Assembly (NCBI GenBank): GCA_025617745.1
Contig: CM046869.1
Coordinates: 16,449,168 to 16,513,167, forward strand
From: Heliocidaris erythrogramma
Lineage: Eukaryota; Echinodermata; Echinoidea; Camarodonta; Echinometridae
DNA length: 64,000 nt
Direction of reading: 5' to 3'
This document shows, piece by piece, positions 8,281 through 48,030 of the stretch (positions within the stretch are counted from its first letter, which is position 1; each line of letters starts with the position of its first letter). A program made the translations under genes and the position numbers. The notes under the pieces were generated by a model, which was not told where the DNA came from, searched no databases, and saw only the letters and a program-made list of their open reading frames with translations.

Positions 8281-9282
8281 GGCCAATCAACATTTCGTTT
8301 AACAATTTGGTCTAATAATCAGTTTAAACACTTTGTCTTAACATCACTTCATCTATAGCCAATTCATCTAAAAACCCATTTAGTCTAATACCCATTTGGT
8401 CTTAAAACTACTTGGTCTAAGAATCAGTTCGTCTAATGTTCACTTTGTCCAATATCTATTTCGGCTAAAACCAGTTGGTCTAATAACCAAATGGTCTAAT
8501 CATCATTTTGTCTACTTACCATTTTGTCTAATCACGGTTTGGTCCAATTCTCAGTTCGTCAAATAACCATTTGGTCTAATGTTCACTTGGTCTAATATCC
8601 ATTTGGTCTAATACTACAGAGATATAGGTTAGCCTGTCATAGTTATATAGGTTTATTGCCACTTGGTCTACAGCTAGTAGGTCTAATAGCCAATTGATCT
8701 ACCATCCATCGGTCTAGTATCAGTTGGTCTAATAAAACAATCTAAACATCATTTCGTCCAATTACCATTTGTTTTAATTGTCATTTCGTCTAATTACCAT
8801 TTGGTCTATAGTGAATTCGTCTAATAGCATTTGGTCTAGTAACTATTTCGTCCATTATCAATTGTCCAATTGCCATTTCGTCTAATCATCAAATGGTATA
8901 AACCCAATAAAGCACTTTGGTAATGTATGCATATTTTATGCATACCTGTCAACAAAGGTTGTTCTTGACAACCTGAAAGCTTGACGGACAAAGCAACAAA
9001 TAATGTATGCAAAGTGGATTCCAAGCATCGAGGCTCATTTGTAAAAAGCAGGTTCATGGAAAAGCAGGTTCATGGAATAGCTCGTCACTAGGTGCTCAGA
9101 GAATATTTGTGCATAAATTTGTATACATTACAGAAGCAGTCTATTGGTCTAATACCCATTTGGTCTACACATCATTCGGTCCATTTGTCAGTTAGTCTAA
9201 CCTCAGTTGGTCTATCATCATTTAGTCAACACCCATTTAGTCTAATAACCATTTGGTCTAATTGCAATTTGGTCTAATTTTA
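8281..9282 (+). repeat. Minisatellite of about 16 bp, TTTGGTCTAATAACCA type
   Basis: Roughly 45 to 50 diverged copies of a 16-bp unit (consensus ATTTGGTCTAATAACC), all in one orientation. The array begins directly after the right TSD of the hAT-like element and is split by a small MITE at 8908-9146. The word GGTCTA stays constant while the spacer half varies. Confidence 0.85.
8908..9146. mobile_element. Small MITE (about 240 bp), copy 1
   Basis: Interrupts the 16-bp array. Its ends carry inverted GTAATGTATGCA / TGTATACATTAC words, and the interior contains complementary blocks around AAAGGTTGTTCTTGACAACC. An inverted copy lies at 60400-60650 with the same order of blocks. Confidence 0.65.
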
Positions 9283-9920: not shown

Positions 9921-10570
9921 TAGTCTTCCACATCAGTCGTTTATAAAATTAAAATATCATCTATTTTCTAACTGAACGTGGAATTTAGCTTGCATGTGTT
10001 TAAAAAGAGGCAATATCGTGATACAGACCCCGCAACTTACCCGTCTTGTAATCGATCTTCTTAAACGTCTAACTTCAGCCAACTCACTAGTTATACTCGT
10101 GTTACAAGCCCCGCACAACCATGTTGAACAACTTACAAAACGGAAATGGGGCCGTTTTAACATTATAAACTCGTGAACAAGGCCCCATCCTATGCAAAAT
10201 GAAGACAGACAACATGGTAGTGGGGCCTCACGATTACATATAAGGGCATAGTTGCAAGGGAGGGGGGATAAAGGCAGGGACGGATCCGAATCGGCCGGGG
10301 CCCCCTTTTGAAACCCTTAAGTACACAATAAAACAAATTGGGGGGGGGGGGGGGCGGAGGGGGGAATTGCAAGGGAGGGGTTAAAGGGATATATAAGGGG
10401 ATACTTTCCCCCAATATCTAAATTTTTTTGATGGGGGACTCCCCAAATGTATATTTTTGAGGGAGTAATGGCAAGGGGGGGGGGGGGGGGTGGGTAAAGG
10501 TATGGGCATCCGGATCCAGGGGCTAAAGCAGCTGTGCCCCCCCCCCCTTTAAAATCCAAGTGGCATGCCT
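9921..10570. other. Low-complexity DNA with long G runs
   Basis: Contains several poly-G tracts of 10-14 bp and two related GGGATTGCAAGGGAGGGG blocks. No gene was seen. It abuts the truncated 3' side of the DIRS-like element. Confidence 0.5.
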
Positions 10571-10574
10571 TAAC

Positions 10575-13500
10575 TACACAATAAAATAATTGCATCTTTT
10601 TTGGGGGGCGGTGGTGGGGGGATTGCAAGGAAGTTCCCACACTGAAGGGAGAATGCATCGAGGGCCCAAGCTTCCGGATCTCGCACTCGAGAGCAGTATC
10701 TCGGGAGGCGATGATTGAGAGATGTCACAAACAGATCTATCTCTAGAGGGACCCAGACTGAACTGAGGTAATCGAAGACCTCTTGATTCAGTGTCCACTC
10801 GGAGGGAAGGCACATGCCCCGGGACAGAAAATCTGCAATCAGATTGTCCAGGCCGGGAACATAGGAGACGATCGGAATTACTCGGTGAGACCGACACCAC
10901 CTCCAAAGCTTGGCGGTCAGAACGTTCAGAGTAGTGGAACGAGTTCCGCCTTGTCGGTTGATGTAGGCAGCGACAGAGGTGTTGTCCATCAAAACCAGGA
11001 CGGAGCGACCTACAATCATGTTCCCAAAATGACAGAGAGACATGAAGACTGCCATCAACTCCAATACATTGATGTGGGGCAAGGTGCACAGGTGTGACCA
11101 GTCCCCTGAGACCACCTGGTCCGAACAATGGCCGCCCCACCCCAGAAGAAAAGCATCCGTCGAGATGGTGACTGACGGAAGGGGCGTGCGAAGAGACTTG
11201 CCTTGAAGAAGGAACGACTCTTTCGACCAGGGAATAAGCAGGCTTTTGATTTCCCCGGTGAGAGGAATCCACACCTTGAGAGAGTCTACACTGGGCTACA
11301 CTGAAATTGGAATGGCCTCATATGAAGCCAACAGTCTTGGAGGACATCCACAAGGCTCCATAAGTGGCCCAAGAATTGAAGCCATCAGCCTGCCCGAACT
11401 CGACGTTAGAGACGAAGAGATCAAGCTAGTAAGACAATCGCTTGAACCCTCTCCCGACTGGGGCGGGCAACTTGGTTCAAGATGTCTATTTCCGCACCCA
11501 GGTAAATGGGCCTGCGGGTAGAAGTCAACTCAGACTTGTCCCAGTTGACTATGAACCCTACTCTCTGTGTGGTACAGAGAAGTAGGTCCATGTGAGACTG
11601 AAGGACGGACACAGAGCTCGCCACCAGGAGCCAGTCGTCCAGGTAAGTGAAAAGTCTCAGACCGCGATACCTGAGGAAAGCAGCTAGGGCAGAGACTACT
11701 CGAATAAAAACTCGAGGTGCCGGTTTCAGGCCGAATGGTAAGGCTTTGAACCGGAAGTTTCGCCTTGAAAGGTGAAACCTAGTAGGTCCCTTGAAGAAGG
11801 GTGTATAGGTACGTGAAAGTAAGCATCTTTCAAGTCCACCGAAATGGCCACGTCTGACGGTCTGATAGCCGGAACAATCAAGGCGAAGGTTTCCATGCGG
11901 AAACGCTCCCTTGGTATGAAGGTATTCATGACCTTCATATTCAAGATCATTCTGAGCTTCCCCGAGCGTTTGGGAATTACAAAGATAGGGGAGAGACACA
12001 GATGGGGGTGGTCTTGTACCCTTTCAATCGCGCCCTTTTCCAGCAGCTCTTGAATCTCTGTGGAGATGTGCTCTAGAAAAGGGGGCGAGAGTGTAGGAGG
12101 GTTGCGGCGGATGGCTCCGTGTGGGAGGGGCTCTGCGAGCTTTATGCAGAAGCCTCCTCGCAAGATGGAGAGCACAAACTTGTCGGTAATTTCTTCCCAG
12201 ACGGGAAGAATTACTGAACACGGCCTCCAACCCTCACCTCCAACGCTCAGTCATCAAACTCGCCGCGAATCGTGGGCGTACCCAAGTAGGCAGTCAGTCT
12301 CAGGCCAGACCTGGAATGGGCTTCCATCAGGTTTGGGAACTTCTCCGCTTTGGTGTAACTTGTACTCTTAAAGTTGGCACCAAGCCTTCCACCTCATGAA
12401 TGAGGTCATTGGAACAAGACTTTCTCGTAAAGAAATCGTGAGTGTCTTGCTGGGAGAAGGTGAAATCCCTGGCCAAGGGACGAGCCTTACCAAGAAGGGA
12501 AGGAGGCTGAGAAGCGAAGTCATTGTAGACTCGCTTAAAGTCCTCTGTAAGAGGGATGCCCTTGGAGGGACGCTCACCTTTGAAAAGGAGAGACGGATGT
12601 CCCGAATCGACCCGACTCGGCAAATACGTGTCGGGAAGATATTTCTCCAGCAGGGCTTGAGTATCTTCCGCCAGGGACCGAAAGGTCTGGGGCCGAAAGG
12701 TCTGGGGCGTAACCACAGCCTGTAAAGAGGCATCATCCTTCGAGAATCCCGACTGCGAAGCCTGATCCCAAGAAGGGCGGTTTAGGCAGTCCCAGGATTC
12801 CACCCCAGACGGAGCACCAAGTGCCGCTGGAAGGGGAGCAGCCCCAACCGGACGATCAAAAGCTGAACGTGGTCGGGAGATGCCCGCAGAGGGGTGGCAA
12901 GAGCAGAGGAACCGGATCCCAATCCACTGGAACAGTGGTGGATAACCCAAGGGAAAACCAGCGTTCCTAGCCGGACAACCAATAAAACCGGATTCGGGAA
13001 CCGGAAACCGAACCGGATCCGGTATCCGAACCGGAACTGGAACTGGTACCCGAACCGGATCCGAAACCGGATCCGGACCTGGGAGGGTACAGGTATCCCC
13101 CCTTCCCCCAGGGGGGGAGGGGTTGGAGTCAGGCGTGGTGGGGGGTACGGACATAGAGTCCGACCAACCACTCTTCTCCACAATGATCTTCAGATAATTC
13201 AGAAGAGCATGGGAGACGCCCGACTCAGAAGAAGTAGTCACCCTCGGAGGGCTAACCCGCTTCTTCTTGGCCTCCCCTGACACAGTTGGTAAAGACTCGG
13301 TCGATGTCGAGGGGAGAGAGTCCGCCCCGCCGGCCGGCTGGGCAGGACCCTGGCGCTTACGTTTCTTGGGCAGACGAGCATGATTACCGCCCGCACTCAC
13401 TCTCCCTGTTATACAAGTCTCTATCCCCGAGAGAGATATTGGCCTAGTGCGGCACTCACTCTCCCGGTTTATCCCGCATGAGTTGGTTGTCAATACAGAC

Positions 13501-13830
13501 GACAAACTCATCACAGGGCGAACCTTACACGAGGTACGAGACGGAGACCTCGACATGGCTGAAAATAAGACAAGCAAAAAATATAGAACTATATATGACA
13601 ACAACCAACTCACAATACGGAGTGGGAAGGAGGTTGACTTAGGAAAAGTCTGATACACCAAAATGTGTGTAAAAGCTTGGTGAACGGGATTTTTATTGCG
13701 AAAAGCAACCAAAAATGCTTTTGGAGGTAAAAATCTCGCAATTTAGGCTAAGACTTCTCTGACGGGCGAGAAAGGAAGAGGAAGAGCATGGCGGCTGCGC
13801 GATCATGATTGGTGGACGGGGAGCGATCTG
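10575..13830 (-). mobile_element. DIRS-like retroelement (gag-like, RT, RNase H), broken
   Basis: A tyrosine-recombinase-type (DIRS) retroelement fossil on the minus strand. Parts in order: a presumed 5' end near 13.77-13.83 kb; a gag-like ORF at about 12330-13560 with basic Lys/Arg motifs, Pro/Val/Arg minisatellite text and a Trp-containing helical segment; a reverse transcriptase with the DIRS-typical DLKDAYFHVPIHP motif and a TYLDDWLL catalytic box; and an RNase H with DAFLLGWGG, HINVLELMA, DNTSVAAYINRQGG and ADFLSR motifs. The methyltransferase and tyrosine recombinase that follow in whole DIRS elements are missing, since the copy ends at a G-rich junction near 10.57 kb. It is incomplete and carries a few breaks within the remaining coding parts. 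The motifs are still easy to read, so it is of moderate age. Confidence 0.85.
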
Positions 13831-24100: not shown

Positions 24101-24592
24101 TTTCATCTAACGGTCGACGCTGTATCTTATCTGGTGACCGTCGCTTACAATATTCTTAAATAAAGCGAATTCACTATAGTATATGGCATCAACTTGAATC
24201 TTCAAAAATAATTCTTCCGAGCCTTACAGTCAAAGAAAGGGAAATACTTTGAAATGAGATTATACATGTATCATGCCGGCATGATCGATATCGCAATAAA
24301 TGAAGCACCTTCGATCGCGCTGCGCATCCTTGGCTGTCCCGTTCATGATTTTTAATCACCGCATTCTGGGACCATGCCATGTCGACAACAAAGGGACATT
24401 TCCAGAATGCTCCCAGAATGCTTCCAGAATGCTTTCAGAATGCCCCTTTGTTCGGCAACACAAAAGACGCCGATCGGCCGGAAATTTGAGAACGCGACTA
24501 GAATGGGGATATTCCCGACCCATTCTGGAATGCTTGATGACCCCATTCCGGATGCATTCTGAATGGTCGATGAATTTGGATGGTCTCCCTAA

Positions 24593-25035
24593 CAGTTTCC
24601 GTATATTTGTCCTTTTCTTGTTAGATTCCATTAATTGTGTAAAGTACCTCGTGTCTCTTTCCCCGCTTTCATAAAAAGTAGCTCTGGATCTGATTTTAAG
24701 TCCCTCACTTATGTAATCATAGCATGCCTTCAGCTCTGTCTTTTTACTTTCTAATAAATCTATTTTTTCTCTATTCATATCTGTTAAATTATTTTGGATG
24801 TGATTTATTTCTTTTTCTAGTTCCAGAATTTGATCTCTTCGTTTTTTAGCCTTTTCCTTCGAAAATTTCCTGGAAAAATTATTTATTTTCATTTTCAAAA
24901 AATCCCACAAAACTCTCTTATCTTTTATTTCATTTTGGTATGTTTGTTTCAAATTAATAATTTCTTCTTTCATTTGCTTAGTGTATTCATTGTCTGTACA
25001 TAAACTGTTATTAAATTTCCAATATGTGCCTTTAA
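24593..25035 (-). CDS. LINE ORF2 linker between endonuclease and RT
   Basis: An open frame on the minus strand whose native part starts after the foldback insertion and ends at the Harbinger-like insertion. It encodes KLKGTYWKFNNSLCTD, the conserved WxFNNSLL-type segment that follows the endonuclease in L1-like ORF2 proteins. A long charged coiled-coil-like stretch (Lys/Glu-rich) and RSRATFYESGERDTRYFTQL, which precedes the RT, come next. Both ends are open and in frame with the neighbouring LINE blocks once the insertions are removed. Confidence 0.85.
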
Positions 25036-25054
25036 GTTTTGAAGGGGGCATCTC

Positions 25055-25620
25055 GTTTTTCCGAAGGTTCGTATTTCCGAAACACTAATTTCCCATGCCT
25101 GGGGGTTCATAATTCCGAAAATGAAAAAGGGTTCGTAATTCCGAACATTTGTTGCATTATTCCGAAGGTTCGTTATTCCGAAGGTTCGTTTATCCGACGG
25201 TTCGTTTATCCGAAGGTTCATAATTCCGAAAATGAAATAGGGTTCATATTTCCGAAGGTTCGTATTTCCGAAAATGAAAAAGGGCTCATAATTCCGAAGG
25301 TTCGTATTTCCGAAAATGAAAAAGGGTTCGTATTTCCGAAAATGAAAAAGGGTTCGTATTTCCGAAAATGAAATAAGGTTCGTATTTCCGAAAATGAAAA
25401 AGGGTTCGTATTTCCGAAAATGAAAAAGGGTTCGTATTTCCGAAAATGAAATAAGGTTCGTATTTCCGAAAATGAAAAAGGGTTCGTATTTCCGAAAATG
25501 AAATAAGGTTCGTATTTCCGAAAATGAAAAAGGGTTCGTATTTCCGAAAATGAAATAGGGTTCGTATTTCCGAAAATGAAAAAGGGTTCGTATTTCCGAA
25601 AAATGAAATAGGGTTCATAA
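25055..25620 (+). repeat. Left arm: GGTTCGTATTTCCGAA arrays
   Basis: The outer part is a 16-bp repeat (GGTTCGTATTTCCGAA and variants TTATT, TTTAT). The inner part is a 26-bp repeat that adds AATGAAAAAG or AATGAAATAG. About 25 units, with two alternating inner variants (AAAAAG and AAATAG/AAATAAG). Confidence 0.9.
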
Positions 25621-28548
25621 TTCCTGGAAAAAAAAGCAAATTCGTCAGGAGCAGAGGTGTAGCAATGGGGGGGGGGGGGGGGGGGAGGGAACGCCCCACC
25701 CCTCCCTCATCGGATGGCGAAAAAATCAGAAAAAAAGAAAGAAAATGGAATAGGAAAGAAGACGGTTGGACTGTACAAATGATTAATGGTTTTACTCATA
25801 AATACGAACCTACCATTTTTCATTTACATTTATTATATGACCTTCAAATGTTACGTAACACCATACCCGGGAATACACACACATTTTGTATCAAAAGATA
25901 CATTACACTCTAAAGAAAAAGTCATAAGGTCGCGCGGCAAGCCCTTTAAAACTATCAGCGGTGGGGGGGGGGGGGGGCGGGGGGCGCTAATTGCCCTCCA
26001 GTCCTATTTGGATTAAAGGAATGTGAAAGAAAGATGAGTCTCGTCCGGGTCTGAGATACAAAACTGTATTTGGGCAGCCATGTTCATCGTTAATCTCATC
26101 TCAAAGTTCTTCTTTCTTCATCCTGTCGCTTTCTTCTTTGTTTTCCTTTCGCTTTTTTCTTATAATCTATTTATTCCCATATGCATATACGAATTTCAGT
26201 GTTGAAAAAATCGGAATTAGGTTTTCTGTTTTCTTTCCTTTTTTCTTCTTTTTCTCTCTTTTTTCCCTTCTAACCTCTAATGAATCTTTTCACCTTTTTC
26301 TTTTCTCCTTTCTCTTCCCTCTCCCTCCTTTTTGCCCACATAGTGGCGCATATACTGACAGCAATGTTGAATATGAAAGGGGGAGTGACATCCCAACACC
26401 CACCCCTGCCCCCACCCCCTTTTAGCAAGGCCCATGATAGGGGTGGGGTAGGAAAATTTATATATCTTATCATAAGTCATAAGCCTGATCATGTGATCTC
26501 ACATTGTGCAGTACGCAGTTATCTTTATAAAGTTCATATAATGGAACTTAATACAATAACTACGTGTATTTGAGGGCCTCGTGTTTGAAACCAAGTGGAT
26601 GCGGTCACCATGCCCCTCGAAGTGACTTAAAACCGTCGTTCCACTGTTTGCTTACTTTATACAAACATAAATTATCGAGTAATCGCAGATATAGGTTAAC
26701 TATAATTTTTATAATTACAGGGGCCGCATAACTCCCTTTTTTTAAGTAGGGGGGGGGGGGCTGACACATCTTTCCCGAAAATCCACCATTATGTTTCTAC
26801 ATTTTCTAAATTTTATGAGCGAGCGAAGAGAGCGGGGAAAGAATTAACCTACAATTTTATTTTGTCAAAGAAATACACGAGAAAGGTTTATGTACATGAC
26901 CACCTCCTATACTTGATAATTATGTCGGATTTCGGGCACTTTGCAACACGAATATGTGTATATTTGCTGAACGAGGCATCCAAGAAAAGTTTAAGTTTTA
27001 CGAACGAACGAGAAAAAAGGACACTTTATCATCTTTAAATGCTATCAACAAAAGACACTTACAAACATTATTATAAGAAGTATATATGTGCTCCTTAATA
27101 TTTTACCTGAAATGATATATCTTAACACTCTCATTTTTACGTATAAGTTACCCAGTTTATTTGATGACAGTCATGTTCACTCTTAATTCATCTGTGTATT
27201 CATATAATACCCGTCAATCTGTCAATCTACAATGTTTCACCAACCTAAGGTTTTCTCTACTTTAAATTCATTTGGCATTAAAGCTATGGTCACAACCCAC
27301 AAAATTAGCCTGCAATGGGAGTAAAATATGATGTTATGTTTTGCATAATGAATTTATATAGTCAAATAATTTTACACATTCATGCATACTAAATGAAAAA
27401 AATTACGTGTTAAAAAATTGCCTTATTTTAGTAGCCAGCCTTAGCATAATATGCTTTGGACACTATAATTTTCATTATGGATATGTAGAAATTTGGATCC
27501 ACTGGATATGTGTTTTGAGGTTGACAGATAGAAATAGGCCCATGGTTACAAAACTCTAGTAATCATTAGGATCATTTGAATGTAATTAAGATTCTATCAT
27601 CATCTGAAAAGGAAAGTGAGTTCAGCATTATCACATTATATTACTTGTGAATAATAGACGTCATTAATAGACGTCCATATGCACTCGTCAATGTTCATCA
27701 AAAGATAATTCTTGTATGCAATGTAAATCATATCACAATATATAACTAAAAAGAGCAAAATAGGAGGTAAAGATCAGAATCCAGAACTTTAGTAACTCCC
27801 AGTGTGGGTGATAGCAGGGGCGGTGGAGCGTCTTTCAAAATGGGTGGGGGCACCAACAAAAGGGGCACTTTGGGGGCAAAGGGCACCTACAAAGGGTGAA
27901 AAAATTGCGGGAAACGCCACTTTGAGCTGAGACAATAGTATATTGCTTTCGTTGGTGTCCCCACCCATTAATACACTATCGAATATCATTTTCGACACAT
28001 TATTGTTTATGTCTTAGCATGGTTCTAGATGAAAAAGAAAAAAAAAAGAAAAAAAAAATATTTTACAGTTGAGTGCAATGATCTGATTATTCATATTGAA
28101 GATATTTTGAATAACAGCGATTTTCCTAATAATTATGATAAAAATGGGAAATGCGAGCGAGCGTAGCCAGCGAGCTTTAAAAAAATTAGAAAGAAATTGT
28201 CGTTCTTCCTGTTTTGATGTAAGGGCACTGCTCATTCTTGTATAACTGCCCCCTGCTCCACTGCCTCTCATTATGCTGATATCAGTAGGGGATCGGAATC
28301 TATTATATAGGAAGCCTCTCTGAGCTAGGTAGGCCTATGTGGTTCTTTTGTGGACGTTCGGGCTCAATTTGTAAGCGACATCGGAGTATATACGAACAAT
28401 ATATTAAATACATATATAGGTATATAGGTATAGGGCACTTATCACAAGACAAAGCGGGCACTTATCAATAGCAGTGACTCCTTTATGAACTCTCTGTAAT
28501 ATTATGTTGTTGTTTTGGGGACCGGAGGGGAGGGCTTGTAGAGTCATC
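25621..28548. other. Interior of the foldback element, no gene
   Basis: Non-coding DNA with poly-G and poly-pyrimidine tracts. Short ORFs here match nothing recognised. Confidence 0.45.
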
Positions 28549-29717: not shown

Positions 29718-30158
29718 AAACCCTTTTTCATTTTCGGAAATACGAACCCTTTTTCATTTTCGGAAATACGAACCCTATTTCATTTTCGGAAATACGAACC
29801 CTTTTTCATTTTCGGAAATACGAACCCTATTTCATTTTCGGAAATACGAACCCTATTTCATTTTCGGAAATACGAACCCTTTTTCATTTTCGGAAATACG
29901 AACCCTTTTTCATTTTCGGAAATACGAACCCTATTTCATTTTCGGAAATACGAACCCTTTTTCATTTTCGGAAATACGAACCCTTTTTCATTTTCGGAAA
30001 TACGAACCTTCGGAATTATGAACCCTATTTCATTTTCGGAAAAAAGAACCTTCGGAAAAACGAACCTTCGGAGTAACGAACCTTCGGAATAACGAACCTT
30101 CGGAATTATGAACCTTCGGAAAAACGAACCTTCGGAAATACGAACCTTCGGAAAAACG
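29718..30158 (-). repeat. Right arm: inverted GGTTCGTATTTCCGAA arrays
   Basis: Mirror image of 25055-25620: the same 26-bp inner unit and 16-bp outer unit in reverse complement, with the same two inner variants in a different order. Variant order and copy number differ between arms, so arms have expanded independently. Confidence 0.9.
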
Positions 30159-30177
30159 ACATGTAACCGTTTTGAAG

Positions 30178-30949
30178 ATGATGCAGTAGACTTATTGTAC
30201 ATTTGAAAGATAACTGCCGAATGGTCTGGCGCTATAGACGGGATTATGTTACATTTTAAAACTATTTCCTTTAACTTTTCAGTAATAAACCAATAATCAA
30301 GCCGGCTTTGCATAAAGGGATTAACTTGACTAAAAGTGAATTGCTTCTTAAAACCATTTAATTCCCTCCAAATGTCTATTAGATTTAAATTACCCAGGAA
30401 ATTATCGAAATTCTTGTGAAATGAAGACTTGAACTGTCGTTTATTATTTCCCATGTAGTCTAAGTCAATATTCCTTACTAAATTGAAATCTCCCCCAATA
30501 ATGAGTGGGATGTCTTGATCATGTTTTTCTTTTAGAATTCCATTTAATTTATGCAAGACTGTATTCCGTTCTAGAGTTTTCCCCTGAACCGGAAAATATA
30601 CATTAACTATAATAAGCCTTATTCCTTGTAAAATACATTCCATAATGATGTACCTCCCTTCTTCATCCGTTTTTATATCTAAAATCTGAATCTCTAATTT
30701 AGAATTAATTAAAACAGTGACCCCTCGACTATGATTTGTTCCGTGACTAAAATATAACTTTCCGTCCCACACTAACCCCCATTCGTCTTCAATATCCCTT
30801 GTACTAAATGTCTCTTGTAAAAAGAATACATCTGCTTGCTTATCCTTCAACCAAGTAAATATTCTCTCTCTTTTTATCTTATCTCTCAACCCTTTAACAT
30901 TCAAAGATAGAAAGTTACAGTTAACAGAAAAACAGTTAAAGTCCATCAT
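30178..30949 (-). CDS. LINE ORF2 AP endonuclease domain
   Basis: N-terminal apurinic-type endonuclease of an L1/Tx1 LINE. Motifs: SLNVKGLRDKIKR near the start, VFFLQETF (catalytic Glu), a SRGVTVLI segment, LIIGGDFNLV (catalytic Asp/Asn) and the C-terminal SIAPDHSAVIF (catalytic Asp-His). The frame starts with Met-Met at 30949 and is open until the foldback insertion; residues read beyond 30178 come from the inserted repeat. It nicks target DNA to prime reverse transcription. The upstream ORF stop (TGA) overlaps the ORF2 start as ATGA. Confidence 0.9.
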
Positions 30950-39545: not shown

Positions 39546-40483
39546 TACGGTGGCTGATTTCCGCCAAGGTTTTTTTTTCTTTGTTCAGTACGGAGTAATA
39601 ACGCCCTAAATTACGGCGATATTACGCCCTATTACGGCGATATAACGCCCTAAATTACGGTGTAATAACACCCCAAATTACGGCGCAATAATGCCACAAT
39701 ACGGCGTTATAACGCCCTAATACGGCATTATAACGCCCTAATACGGCATTATAACGCCCTATTACAGCGTTATAACGCCCTTAATTGTGGCGTTTCAAGT
39801 ACGAAGTTCGTCATTATGAAGTTTCGAGTTCGAGTACGACAGGAGGCTAGCTCTGCACATCGATCCAGGACCAGGTTTATGTACGTTGGATCGATCACAT
39901 TTTGCCAGCCTGATCTTTGCTCTCTTTGAAATGAATTGAAGCATTCTCCTTCCATGTCATGTAAGTGTTTTCTAATATAAAGAGAAAGAAAACACATACA
40001 TGACATGGAAGGAGAACGCTTCAATTCATTTCAAGAAGAGAAGGCTGACGTACTCGACTGTGCCATGCCGGCAAAATGTGATCGATCCAACATACAAGCC
40101 TGGTCCTGGATCGATTTGCAGAGCTAGCCTCATGTCTTACTCGAATTGTTCTCGAAACGCCGTAATTAAGGGCGTTATAACGCCGTAATAGGGCGTTACA
40201 ACGCCGTAATGTAGGGCGTTATATCGCTCCAACATACATGCCTGGTCCTGGATCGATTTGCAGAGCAAGCCTCATGTCTTACTCGAATTGTTCTCGATAC
40301 GCCGTAATTAAGGGCGTTACAACGCCGTAATTTAGGGCGTTACAACGCCGTAATGTAGGGCGTTACAACGCCGTAATAGGTCGTTATATCGCCGTAATAG
40401 GGCGTTATATCGCCGTAATTTAGGGCGTTATTACGCCATACTGAACAAAGAAAAAAAAACCTTGGCGGAAATCAGCCACCGTA
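39546..40483. mobile_element. Foldback element with ACGCCGTAATTTAGGGCGTT arms, 938 bp
   Basis: Flanked by a perfect 6-bp duplication CATTCC (39540-39545, 40484-40489). It starts TACGGTGGCTGATTTCCGCC and ends with the reverse complement. Each arm then carries an array of about 20-22-bp units (ACGGCGTTATAACGCCCTAA type), followed by unique arm sequence that meets near 39980. The right array is longer than the left and holds a partial duplication of arm sequence (CATGCCTGGTCCTGGATCG). No protein is encoded. Confidence 0.8.
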
Positions 40484-44129: not shown

Positions 44130-44640
44130 TGCAAGAGGCATTTTTGAGGAAAAGCAAACAAGTAGGTTATTCTGAAAGGAAATTTTGTGCTGAATAAGAA
44201 TATCTTGTTTGTGTTTCTCAAAATTGCCTAATTAGGTCATTTAATTAAGGTCAAAGGTCATTAAGTGCAAATTACATATTTTCACAAAAAATGCTTTATT
44301 TCACCTTCTCAATACAATGGTGTAAACAATTTTGCAAATTCACTTACACTAAATCACGCAGAGCATATCAAAATATCGATATTAATGGAAATTGTGATAG
44401 AATTGTTCACTTATTTTGCCAATATCTCCTTAACCGTTGGCATTTCTGTTTTCCACTACGGGATGAGTTTGTGCCTGTTTTCACACCAAAATTCACTTCT
44501 GATCAGTGTTCTCTGGCTTGCTTACATTGTTTTGGGTACTGAGGGACAGGAATATGATATTTGGTTTCATTAATTGTTATAATTAAGACGGTAATTAGAG
44601 CCAAAGGCCAATTAGTGCAGAATACCAATTATCACGAAAT
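44130..44640 (+). repeat. Left TIR, 511 bp
   Basis: Starts TGCAAGAGGCATTTTTGAGG and ends near CCAATTATCACGAAAT. Contains TTAAGGTCAAAGGTCATTAA, a nuclear-receptor-like half-site context that may be fortuitous. Confidence 0.85.
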
Positions 44641-44914
44641 ATAATTTTTTTTTGTGATACTGATGCTGCCATCCTGTGGTAGGCCCCTAATACAATAATT
44701 ATCTCACATGCTTTTGTTCATCATCATCAAGGCAGAATCCCTACCTACTCTTCCTGAAGTGCAGGTGTCTTGTGATGGTTGTGTAATGGTGTATTGCATG
44801 AGATGTATTACATTCCCACAGCATGTTCTACTAGACAGGTAGATCTACTTGAGCAACATTCAGCCCAAATAGAAAGTGAAAGTGAATGTGTAGGCCCACA
44901 TATGTCAAGCATGG

Positions 44915-47239
44915 ATGACGGCTATTGGTGGGAAGGATCATGACGCTCTTCTAGAGATCACATCTTCTCCAGGCTTTCGGAAACATATGGTGGCATTTGG
45001 AGAGGAGAACAGAAGTGACAAGAACTTCGCGTTCTGGTGGAGCTACATGGAGATGGTGGCTGTCTTGCTAGCCTTTATCCGAGCCCAGCGTCAAGGAATA
45101 TGGGAGCTGCACCTTGCTGCGTTTCGTAAAATGCTGCCCTTCTTCCACAGATATGACCACACAAACTATGCACGATGGGGATGCGTATACCTCTCACAGA
45201 TGAAACAGTTACCACAGCCAGTGGAGGATGAGTTTAAACTTGGAAACTTCGTGGTAAAGGGTTCGAACCAACGCTTCAACCAAGTGTCCCCGGACCACAG
45301 TCTAGAGTGGCTGAATGGCATCGGAAAGAAGAGTGGCGGCATCGTTGGGATCACGAAGACAAACACAGCTCTTGCAAGATGGACTCTGTCTTACAATCAA
45401 AGAGCTAGTGTTTCGAATCAGACATACGAAATGATGAATGTTGGTTTGGAAACTGAGTGGACACCTAATGAAGCAACACCAGCTCGGATGTCTCGTGACA
45501 GCAAAGACGAAGCAAGCATCTGCACAGTGTTGAGGAGATTGAAGGTTATGACAGAGGAGAGACTGGATAGGCCTGACACACTGTTGAATATAGCAACTCG
45601 AGACGTGGCCACAACCGAAATAGAGGAGTCACTGCTGAATGCAAAGCAATTGGGACAGGATCAGCTGGAGATATTCGTGAAGGAGAGAATGGTTGATGAA
45701 AAGGTTGACTTCAGGGACCCACTGCGGAAAGCGAAAGCTGTCACCTTCGCATCCTTGTATGATATGCGCACAGGGACAGAGACTTCGAAAGGAAAGATGG
45801 AAACTTTGAAAGCAGACCGGAACTTTTCACAGAGATTGATCACTGCATATCGAGCTGTTGATCTACACAACATCCTCAACCATGAGTTGATGAAAGTACC
45901 AGTGAGCATTGCCGATACCTCTGGCAAATTGCGTACCGGTTCGAAATCTATCATATTTGGTGTGTTAACCAAAGATGTAAGTTGCCCTCCAGAAATCACC
46001 ATTGGTAAGCCTGCCTGCCTGGTCATAGATGGACAAGCCACGGTGATGGCACTGGGGAAGCCAAGCGAAGTCCACACCTTCGGGCAATACGCCAGTATGT
46101 TTGTTAACCACATTCTGAAGCAGGGCAAAGAATATGACAGGATTGATGTGACCTTCGATCGGTACAGGGACCTCTCCATCAAAGGTGGTACAAGAGAGAA
46201 GCGTACAAAGAATTCCAGGCCAATCCGCCGACTGATTGAAGACGGAGACGTACCCCTTCCACAGAAGTGGCCCGACTTCCTGGCATCCACTGAGAACAAG
46301 AAGGATCTATGTCTATTCCTGTCTAATGCACTCATCGCCGGAGCTCCTAGTGAGAAGACCATTGTGGTGGGTGGAGGTTTTGCAACAGAGACAGAAGTAC
46401 AGAGTAATGATCCCACAATGTCCACAGCATTGCTGGAAGCTGAACATGAAGAGGCAGATTCAAGGATCGTACTTCACTGTATCCACAGTGATCCACAGAC
46501 CATAGTCGTCTCTGCTCGTGATACTGACATCTTGATCTTACTTCTGGCACACTTCAACAAATGCAATTGCCAGCAGTTATGGCTGAAGGCTGGTACTTTG
46601 AAGAAACCAAAGTATGTTCCCATTCACACCATTAGAGATCAGCTCGGCCTTAGTGACCAAGTCTATGAAACCATGCCAGCATTCCATGCGATCACAGGGT
46701 GTGACACGGTGTCATACTTGTCTGGGCATTCCAAGAAGTCGGCATGGGATGTATTCATTGAACACCATCATCTACTCAAGGATCTTGGGAAATCTCCCAC
46801 TGTATCCAAGGAGGTTGCTGAGGATGCTGAGAAATTCATCTGTCACATTTACAAGTCCTCATCCGAGAACTGTGACAAGGCCAGGGTGAAGCTGTTCACA
46901 AAGTGCCACGCACCAGAGTCAATGCCACCATCAAGTGATGCTGCCCAGTTACACATACAGCGTGCCAACTACCAAAGCCTAGTGTGGAGAGAGGCCTGTC
47001 ATCCCAAACCAGATATTCCCTCCCCGACTGACTCCGGATGGAAACTGGTTGATGGGCTTCTAAAACCTGTCCTCACAACCTTACCACCCATTCCAAAGGC
47101 ATGCAAGGACATTGTGTCATGTAACTGCACGAAGGGTTGTGTGAGCAATAGGTGCACTTGCAAGAAATGGGGTCTGCAATGTACAGAGGCATGCAAATGT
47201 AGCGAGTCCGATGTGGAATGCAAAAACAAGACAAATTAA
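44915..47239 (+). CDS. PIN/FEN1-like nuclease with C-terminal Cys cluster, transposon-borne
   Basis: Intact 774-residue protein. Region 1 (about 35-175) holds FWWSYMEMVAVLLAFIRAQR, YDHTNYARWGCVYL and FNQVSPDHSLEWLN, conserved text I recall from a large repeated family of uncharacterised proteins in cnidarians and other marine invertebrates. Region 2 (about 365-600) looks like a PIN/FEN1-type nuclease: VIDGQA (Asp372), VTFDRY (Asp415), SIKGGTREKR, HEEADSR (Glu512, Glu513, Asp515) and ARDTDILILL (Asp536, Asp538), then HAITGCDTVS (Asp597). Such acidic clusters bind two metals in flap nucleases. Region 3 (about 735-770) is a Cys cluster, CNCTKGCVSNRCTC then CTEACKC, like CXC/tesmin DNA-binding motifs. 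The start is the first Met after a stop at 44891; an acceptor-like TGTGTAG there leaves room for an upstream exon. Function is inferred, not known. Confidence 0.75.
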   Translation: MTAIGGKDHDALLEITSSPGFRKHMVAFGEENRSDKNFAFWWSYMEMVAVLLAFIRAQRQGIWELHLAAFRKMLPFFHRYDHTNYARWGCVYLSQMKQLPQPVEDEFKLGNFVVKGSNQRFNQVSPDHSLEWLNGIGKKSGGIVGITKTNTALARWTLSYNQRASVSNQTYEMMNVGLETEWTPNEATPARMSRDSKDEASICTVLRRLKVMTEERLDRPDTLLNIATRDVATTEIEESLLNAKQLGQDQLEIFVKERMVDEKVDFRDPLRKAKAVTFASLYDMRTGTETSKGKMETLKADRNFSQRLITAYRAVDLHNILNHELMKVPVSIADTSGKLRTGSKSIIFGVLTKDVSCPPEITIGKPACLVIDGQATVMALGKPSEVHTFGQYASMFVNHILKQGKEYDRIDVTFDRYRDLSIKGGTREKRTKNSRPIRRLIEDGDVPLPQKWPDFLASTENKKDLCLFLSNALIAGAPSEKTIVVGGGFATETEVQSNDPTMSTALLEAEHEEADSRIVLHCIHSDPQTIVVSARDTDILILLLAHFNKCNCQQLWLKAGTLKKPKYVPIHTIRDQLGLSDQVYETMPAFHAITGCDTVSYLSGHSKKSAWDVFIEHHHLLKDLGKSPTVSKEVAEDAEKFICHIYKSSSENCDKARVKLFTKCHAPESMPPSSDAAQLHIQRANYQSLVWREACHPKPDIPSPTDSGWKLVDGLLKPVLTTLPPIPKACKDIVSCNCTKGCVSNRCTCKKWGLQCTEACKCSESDVECKNKTN

Positions 47240-47519
47240 TGCCTTCATCTGCACCACAACATGTTTTTCCCATATAATGATAGGAACCTTGTCCTGGATG
47301 TATCACAATCAAGCAGTGATGGGAAAAGTCTTGGTAATGAGCTGTTACTGAAATATGTGCCAACGGGTCGGGGTTAGGCCTAGTCGTAATTATTTTTATT
47401 TGTTTTAATTATTTTGTTGCTTTATATTTAATTCGATAATTTAGTTTATCAGATAACATTATTTTGAGTATTTGCAGCATAGATGGGGTAGAATTGACCA
47501 AAAATGGACATAAAAGTAA

Positions 47520-48030
47520 TTTCGTGATAATTGGTATTCTGCACTAATTGGCCTTTGGCTCTAATTACCGTCTTAATTATAACAATTAATGAAACCAAAT
47601 ATCATATTCCTGTCCCTCAGTACCCAAAACAATGTAAGCAAGCCAGAGAACACTGATCAGAAGTGAATTTTGGTGTGAAAAACAGGCACAAACTCATCCC
47701 GTAGTGAAAAACAGAAATGCCAACGGTTAAGGAGATATTGGCAAAATAAGTGAACCTTTCTTTCACAATTTCCATTAATATTGATATTTTGATATGCTCT
47801 GCGTGATTTATTGTAAGTGAATTTGCAAAATTCTTTACACCATTGTATTTAGAAGGTGAAATAAAGCATTTTTTGTGAAAATATGTAATTTGCACTTAAT
47901 GACCTTTGACCTTAATTAAATGACCTAATTAGGCAATTTTGAGAAACACAAACAAGATATTCTTATTCAGCACAAAATTTCCTTTCAGAATAACCTACTT
48001 GTTTGCTTTTCCTCAAAAATGCCTCTTGCA
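47520..48030 (-). repeat. Right TIR, 511 bp
   Basis: Reverse complement of 44130-44640 with scattered substitutions, mostly in the inner half. The outermost 60 bp are almost identical between arms. Confidence 0.85.

Follow-up and report, generated by a model that had tools for sequence, protein, structure and literature searches.

Academ transposons are counted among the DDD/E superfamilies in Repbase (PMC9587614), and in a library centred on bivalves the mean length of the curated Academ elements is 5,565 bp (PMC10294476). Target-site duplications are described as 9-10 bp long in AcademH and 3-4 bp long in AcademX, seemingly tied to the encoded helicase and nuclease (PMC10045372). KolobokP, KolobokD and KolobokE carry a DDD/E transposase together with an accessory nuclease, these nucleases being of the His-Me, DEDDh or PD-(D/E)xK type, and Kolobok elements have 5'-RR/YY-3' ends and a 4-bp duplication that is usually TTAA, or 3-5 bp in KolobokP (PMC9587614). 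We analyzed a 64,000-nucleotide stretch of the Heliocidaris erythrogramma genome (assembly GCA_025617745.1, contig CM046869.1, positions 16,449,168 to 16,513,167 of the forward strand; hereafter the window) in which a 3,893-bp element at 44134-48026 is bounded by long terminal inverted repeats (TIRs) and carries one intact open reading frame (ORF) of 774 codons. The element is very probably a real transposon copy. The explanation that we favor, with moderate confidence, is that it is a deletion derivative of a nuclease-carrying, AcademX-like TIR transposon and is moved by a transposase supplied in trans.

AcademX is a TIR-type DNA transposon, described with a nuclease and a 3-4 bp duplication (PMC10045372), and the present element is alike in its TIRs, in the likely, though not proven, nuclease-like core of its protein and in a candidate 4-bp duplication, TGCA, found on both sides, although the last point is modest, coming from one copy and a palindromic sequence. 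The element differs in that Academ has a DDD/E transposase, whereas none is recognisable here in Pfam or NCBIfam beyond a weak partial match to DUF6589, and in that it is shorter than the curated Academ average. Since the searches turned up no transposase domain, we do not assign the copy to Academ; in its workings it most resembles an Academ element that carries a nuclease and has lost the N-terminal coding part. A preliminary description of this locus, made from the sequence alone, had proposed either an undescribed class with a nuclease as its catalytic core or an accessory of an Academ-like element. The first proposal was not supported, as the ORF looks N-terminally incomplete and the nuclease-encoding AcademX had already been described (PMC10045372). 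The second fits best, and a shortened relative of known Academ transposons is more likely than a new class. Kinship with AcademX was judged from published descriptions, and this counts against our explanation.

Ends of the element

The element spans 44134-48026 once the TGCA that flanks it on the left (44130-44133) and on the right (48027-48030) is taken as a 4-bp target-site duplication. The left TIR (44134-44639, plus strand, 506 bp) starts with AGAGGCATTT and the right TIR (47520-48026, minus strand, 507 bp) ends with AAATGCCTCT. End-to-end alignment of the two arms showed 8 substitutions and one indel, a second alignment gave 97.9% identity over 520 columns, and the outermost 176 bases of the arms were identical. 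An inverted-repeat search recovered the arms in two blocks, 44130-44481/47679-48030 (98%) and 44478-44640/47519-47681 (100%). Repeats of 511 bp with 95% identity, over a span of 44130-48030, had been reported in the preliminary description; long TIRs are indeed present, but they measure 506 and 507 bp, the span given included the TGCA on each side, and the identity is about 98%. Because the arms are about 98% identical, the copy appears to be fairly young. No second copy of the inverted repeat was detected in the window (blastn, E 0.01).

The boundaries were examined at 16 shifts with direct-repeat lengths of 2-12 bp. A direct repeat of more than 2 bp was found at only one boundary, where TGCA stands on both sides, and two other shifts gave 2 bp. 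TGCA is its own reverse complement and could be four further bases of the inverted repeat, which weighs against reading it as a duplication; by our arithmetic, a random arm ends in a 4-bp palindrome with a chance of about 1/16. The evidence from the TGCA bracket of this one copy for a 4-bp target-site duplication is therefore modest. Long inverted repeats of this kind resemble those of the MuDR group (Mutator-like elements, MULE), for which duplications of 8-11 bp are expected, but no direct repeat of 5-12 bp, or of any length above 4 bp, appeared in the 16 shifts. The 5'-RR/YY-3' ends and the 4-bp duplication recall Kolobok, but the duplication is TGCA and not TTAA, and the nucleases listed for KolobokP, KolobokD and KolobokE (PMC9587614) are not flap-type, unlike the probable nuclease core of this element. 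We regard a MuDR or Kolobok-type element as extremely unlikely.

The ends of the element are structured. The outer 96 nt of each inverted repeat form an imperfect hairpin, with a self-inverse match of 72% over 97 columns; on the left, the hairpin lies at 44136-44229 and is found identically in both arms. Folded as single-stranded DNA, positions 44134-44232 gave -19 kcal/mol (z -6.3), and none of 200 shuffles was as stable. The TIR is thus itself inverted at its outer end (44134-44229), making a double palindrome. A unit of about 90 nt also occurs twice in direct orientation within the inverted repeat, an outer copy at 44198-44289 and an inner copy at 44550-44639 (both plus strand), the last base of the inner copy being also the innermost base of the repeat. 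Local alignment of the two copies, in stretches picked by eye, scored 62 compared to at most 39 in 500 shuffles. The hairpin and the units of about 90 nt are putative binding sites of the transposition machinery.

The encoded protein and its nuclease-like region

The intact 774-codon ORF that the preliminary description placed between the long inverted repeats was confirmed at 44915-47239 on the plus strand. It starts with ATG, has an in-frame stop upstream of this ATG and is the sole long plus-strand ORF of the element; an antisense frame of 254 amino acids (45661-46425) overlaps it. The longest stop-free run in the element, on either strand, was 781 codons, whereas no run in 300 mononucleotide shuffles exceeded 222; the frame is therefore far above chance length. 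No second copy of the ORF was detected in the window (tblastn, next best E 2.5). A Pack-type origin, in which a TIR element captured a nuclease gene of the host or of another element and the ORF is passenger DNA, would agree with the single copy in the window and with a protein in which no transposase is recognisable. However, the uninterrupted ORF takes up about 80% of the sequence enclosed by the repeats, and a host gene would be unlikely if the relatives of the ORF are multi-copy. We consider a Pack-type origin decidedly unlikely.

Searches with the whole protein returned nothing from Pfam or the PDB sequences at E-values up to 5, and nothing from NCBIfam or PHROGs at E-values up to 10. No transposase family was found for it in Pfam or NCBIfam, in agreement with the preliminary description, which saw no DDE triad, and none among PDB sequences, where the N-terminal 195 residues also had no transposase match. 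When segments of the protein were searched, residues 31-135 (45005-45319, plus strand) matched profile positions 258-362 of the 410 of DUF6589 (PF20231) with an E-value of 0.09, below the cut-off. Three of four further overlapping segments matched the same family, also below the cut-off (E 0.064, 0.071, and 0.096), and the fourth did not; the whole protein did not match DUF6589 in Pfam. The same N-terminal segments matched ATP_synt_H over 18 residues (E 0.019-0.13); we attribute this match to chance, and it illustrates how little weight E-values of this order carry. Our explanation is weakened in two ways here, as the DUF6589 match is near chance level and the view of DUF6589 as a transposase domain is our own conjecture. 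A search of two archaeal genomes for DUF6589 gave no match, nor did its controls, and was uninformative.

The start codon lies only 275 bp from the left repeat, too close for the first 250 or so positions of a DUF6589-like domain to fit upstream of the ATG. Because its start matches DUF6589 at about positions 257-362 of 410, the ORF looks N-terminally incomplete, on weak evidence. Long uncharacterised invertebrate proteins presumably carry the N-terminal region of the ORF mid-protein. Upstream and in the frame of the ORF, a 36-codon stop-free stretch at 44732-44839 has the cysteine pattern SCDGCVMVYCMRC and follows a pyrimidine-rich run ending in AG; it is a possible remnant of an upstream exon. 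Were the ORF complete and the copy autonomous, a diverged RNase H-type transposase could lie in the N-terminal half (for example, D81 together with E131 of LEWLNGIGK, where the E-x-x-N-x-x-x-K spacing is reminiscent of retroviral integrase). The ORF, intact from an ATG preceded by an in-frame stop, and the 98% identity of the arms suit such a copy, but transposases were not found in any of the searches above, including that with the N-terminal 195 residues, and the weak DUF6589 match is restricted to the last third of the profile. An autonomous copy is, in our view, unlikely.

The flap/5'-nuclease-like region was placed at residues 368-660 (46016-46894, plus strand) by its hhalign register, the order of its motifs and MAFFT column tests. 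Its candidate acids are D372, D415, E513, D515, D536, D538, and D597, followed by SGHSKKSA, and the motifs DGQ, FDRY, HEEADSR, ARDTD, and TGCD named in the preliminary description are all present in that order. The bacterial 5'-nuclease profile was built from 29 sequences of 30 loci, one locus having failed a motif filter that itself requires EADD-like and D.D motifs. When the whole 774-residue protein was aligned to this profile with hhalign, the best alignment was at residues 502-619 and set HEEADS on EADD, ARDTD on DKD, TG-CD on GD..D, and SGHSKKSA on the helix-hairpin motif. Five of the seven metal-binding columns of the profile were acidic in the protein. Among the controls, which were 1000 shuffles of the whole protein, 1000 of the region and 545 unrelated open frames, none reached five acidic columns; the open frames, not all of them genes, were at least 313 codons long, came from 77 chance loci and were each represented by their first 313 residues. 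Four acidic columns were reached by five whole-protein shuffles, three region shuffles and three open frames. An alignment as long as that of the protein was attained in 7 of the 1000 whole-protein shuffles and in 2 of the 1000 region shuffles. Stretches of the protein that exclude the nuclease region (1-313 and 101-413) gave no acidic column, and the stretch that contains it (462-774) gave five.

Upstream of the aligned core, D372 (VIDG) and D415 (TFDR) stand in the expected order. In the MAFFT column test, whose controls are weak, 7 of 9 columns matched on the bacterial side, which 4 of 200 shuffles equalled or bettered, and 7 of 10 on the archaeal side, which 2 of 200 equalled or bettered. 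D372 and D415 both fell on the matching bacterial columns, and only D372 did so in the archaeal alignment, D415 lying off the column of the flap endonucleases (FENs); the last two columns of the bacterial alignment were out of the register given by hhalign. Of three regular expressions for motif order tried first, two missed the window; the third matched it and recognised 13 of 45 FENs, but was also found in 75 of 20,000 shuffles and in 3 of 586 frames. A revised expression matched the window, recognised 11 of the 45 FENs and was found in 7 of 20,000 shuffles, but it was written after the sequence had been seen and is insensitive, so it counts as weak. Compared to the bacterial 5'-nuclease/FEN superfamily (PF02739, PF00867), the acidic motifs and SGHSKKSA are in register in the element's protein, but the protein has S for one D of EADD, the first D of GD..D faces a gap, the region is fused to other regions, and the profile score is not significant. 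On the strength of the register test, and not of the profile score, we consider it likely, though not proven, that the ORF holds a FEN/5'-nuclease-like core.

Several results speak against this assignment. The seven metal columns were named only after the alignment had been seen, and the register test is the favorable one among several choices of profile and mode. Pfam gave no FEN or XPG family for the protein. An archaeal FEN1 hidden Markov model (HMM), from 45 sequences of 63 loci that passed a motif filter (10 of the 45 truncated), and four motif-segment HMMs did not recognise it, three of the four motif HMMs having no match and one matching the wrong place. In hhalign, the archaeal FEN1 alignment scored 17.2, with 8 of 40 shuffles higher and a best alignment that put TGCD over the GTDY of FEN and KKSA over KKAL; an alignment of 35 full-length archaeal FENs matched the wrong place, and 33 of 60 shuffles scored as high. 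In global mode, 42 of 60 and 32 of 60 shuffles scored as high with the two profiles. The bacterial-profile score was equalled by 10 of 60 shuffles in a first run in local mode, and its raw value was matched by 73 of 1000 whole-protein and 199 of 1000 region shuffles (hhalign E 0.086). An unrelated open frame outscored the protein, at 29.9 over 178 columns, and had four acidic columns. The 35 archaeal FENs scored 52-107 on the bacterial profile, compared to 20.5 for the element's protein, and only 2 of them reached five of the seven acidic columns; most true relatives fall below five, and the column count is therefore insensitive as a measure of kinship. Single-sequence AlphaFold models had predicted local distance difference test (pLDDT) values of 32 for residues 322-668 and 49 for residues 500-660.

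Foldseek searches with the model of residues 500-660 (pLDDT 49) gave no PDB match at E 0.001 and 297 at E 10, with no flap or PIN nuclease named among the 50 matches listed of the 297. None of 669 matches to viral structures reached E 0.001, and the 50 listed of these were mostly unnamed or uncharacterised. The PIN/FEN1-like acidic core of the preliminary description, which also suggested a comparison with FEN profiles, is thus supported by the register of five of seven columns on the bacterial profile but not by a significant score, and the archaeal FEN1 profiles gave no significant match.

The protein ends in a CXC-like cysteine cluster (47087-47236, plus strand). The C-terminal 50 residues matched the Tesmin/TSO1 CXC family (PF03638, TCR) at profile positions 3-37 of 38, over which the cluster is alike. 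The E-value was 0.0076, and the score of 17.0 bits is below the curated cut-off of 23.5; the CXC-type cluster of the preliminary description is therefore backed by a match, but one below the Pfam cut-off. A search against the PDB sequences brought up no CXC domain for the cluster. A nuclease-like core with such a tail, the lack of a DDE domain in Pfam and NCBIfam, and long structured ends with terminal hairpins would also suit an animal class of elements without DDE transposase, in which a flap-endonuclease-like enzyme with a CXC tail alone cuts and rejoins long hairpin-ended repeats. However, the ORF looks N-terminally truncated, on the weak evidence given above, and FEN-type enzymes hydrolyse DNA and are not known to carry out strand transfer. 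Such a class is very unlikely. The Academ nuclease is XPG-like.

No relative of the protein was found in the prokaryote, phage, plasmid and viral collections, including by tblastn against phages and plasmids; this is expected because the element is from an animal. In genome contigs, 100 stretches matched a peptide pattern and none was confirmed, and viral contigs had no pattern match. A degenerate pattern, HEEAD.R..LH, was found at 9 viral and 68 genome loci, none of which was judged a relative; tblastn at E 1 matched 2 of the 77 (best E 0.038), and the 77 translations were unlike the protein by eye. The three viral loci with the degenerate pattern FHA.TGCD were attributed to chance, the best tblastn E-value being 0.11 and stops lying nearby.

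Other repeats and coding remains in the window

A foldback of about 0.94 kb is present at 39546-40483. Its mirrored outer ends, GGTGGCTGATTTCCGCCAAGG..., enclose oppositely oriented arrays of a unit of about 22 bp, TACGGCGTTATAACGCCCTAA, and it looks like a foldback element or a miniature inverted-repeat transposable element whose inverted repeats are tandem arrays. Two satellite-like arrays, at 25049-25631 and 29719-30163, are built from a common 26-bp unit in opposite orientation; the first adjoins an ORF at 24356-25051, and the second overlaps an ORF of the endonuclease type of long interspersed nuclear elements (LINEs) at 29936-30949. The minus strand at 10570-13712 holds retroelement remains, in which one ORF matches reverse transcriptase (PF00078, E 1.8e-12), another weakly resembles RNase H (E 0.042) and a further one, of 461 amino acids, has no match; we take this retroelement to be possibly DIRS-like. 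Three arrays at 8367-9278, together about 900 bp in extent, consist of degenerate tandem repeats with a period near 16 bp (CATTTGGTCTAAT type). The EGF-like and LINE-type ORFs of the window point to an animal host.

A possible mode of movement

The parent of the AcademX-like deletion derivative that we favor would have combined a DDD/E transposase with a nuclease, AcademX being its nearest counterpart. The copy would have kept both ends of the element and the C-terminal portion of its protein, namely the end of a transposase-like domain, a domain resembling FEN/5'-nucleases and a zinc module of CXC-like type. With the N-terminal part lost, it would probably depend for its movement on transposase from an intact relative. 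The transposase would bind the repeated units in the long inverted repeats, cut the ends and join them, giving a 4-bp duplication. The nuclease may then trim flaps or branched DNA that remain at the ends or the target, and the CXC module may bind DNA and so aid the nuclease.

Tying a protein that, searched whole, matches no family to a candidate flap-nuclease core in a TIR bracket gives it a concrete, testable function. PMC10045372 asks why an additional nuclease or helicase is present in some eukaryotic transposons, and in what way it may alter the size of the duplication. A compact element that retains the nuclease while apparently lacking the transposase would lend itself well to testing this.

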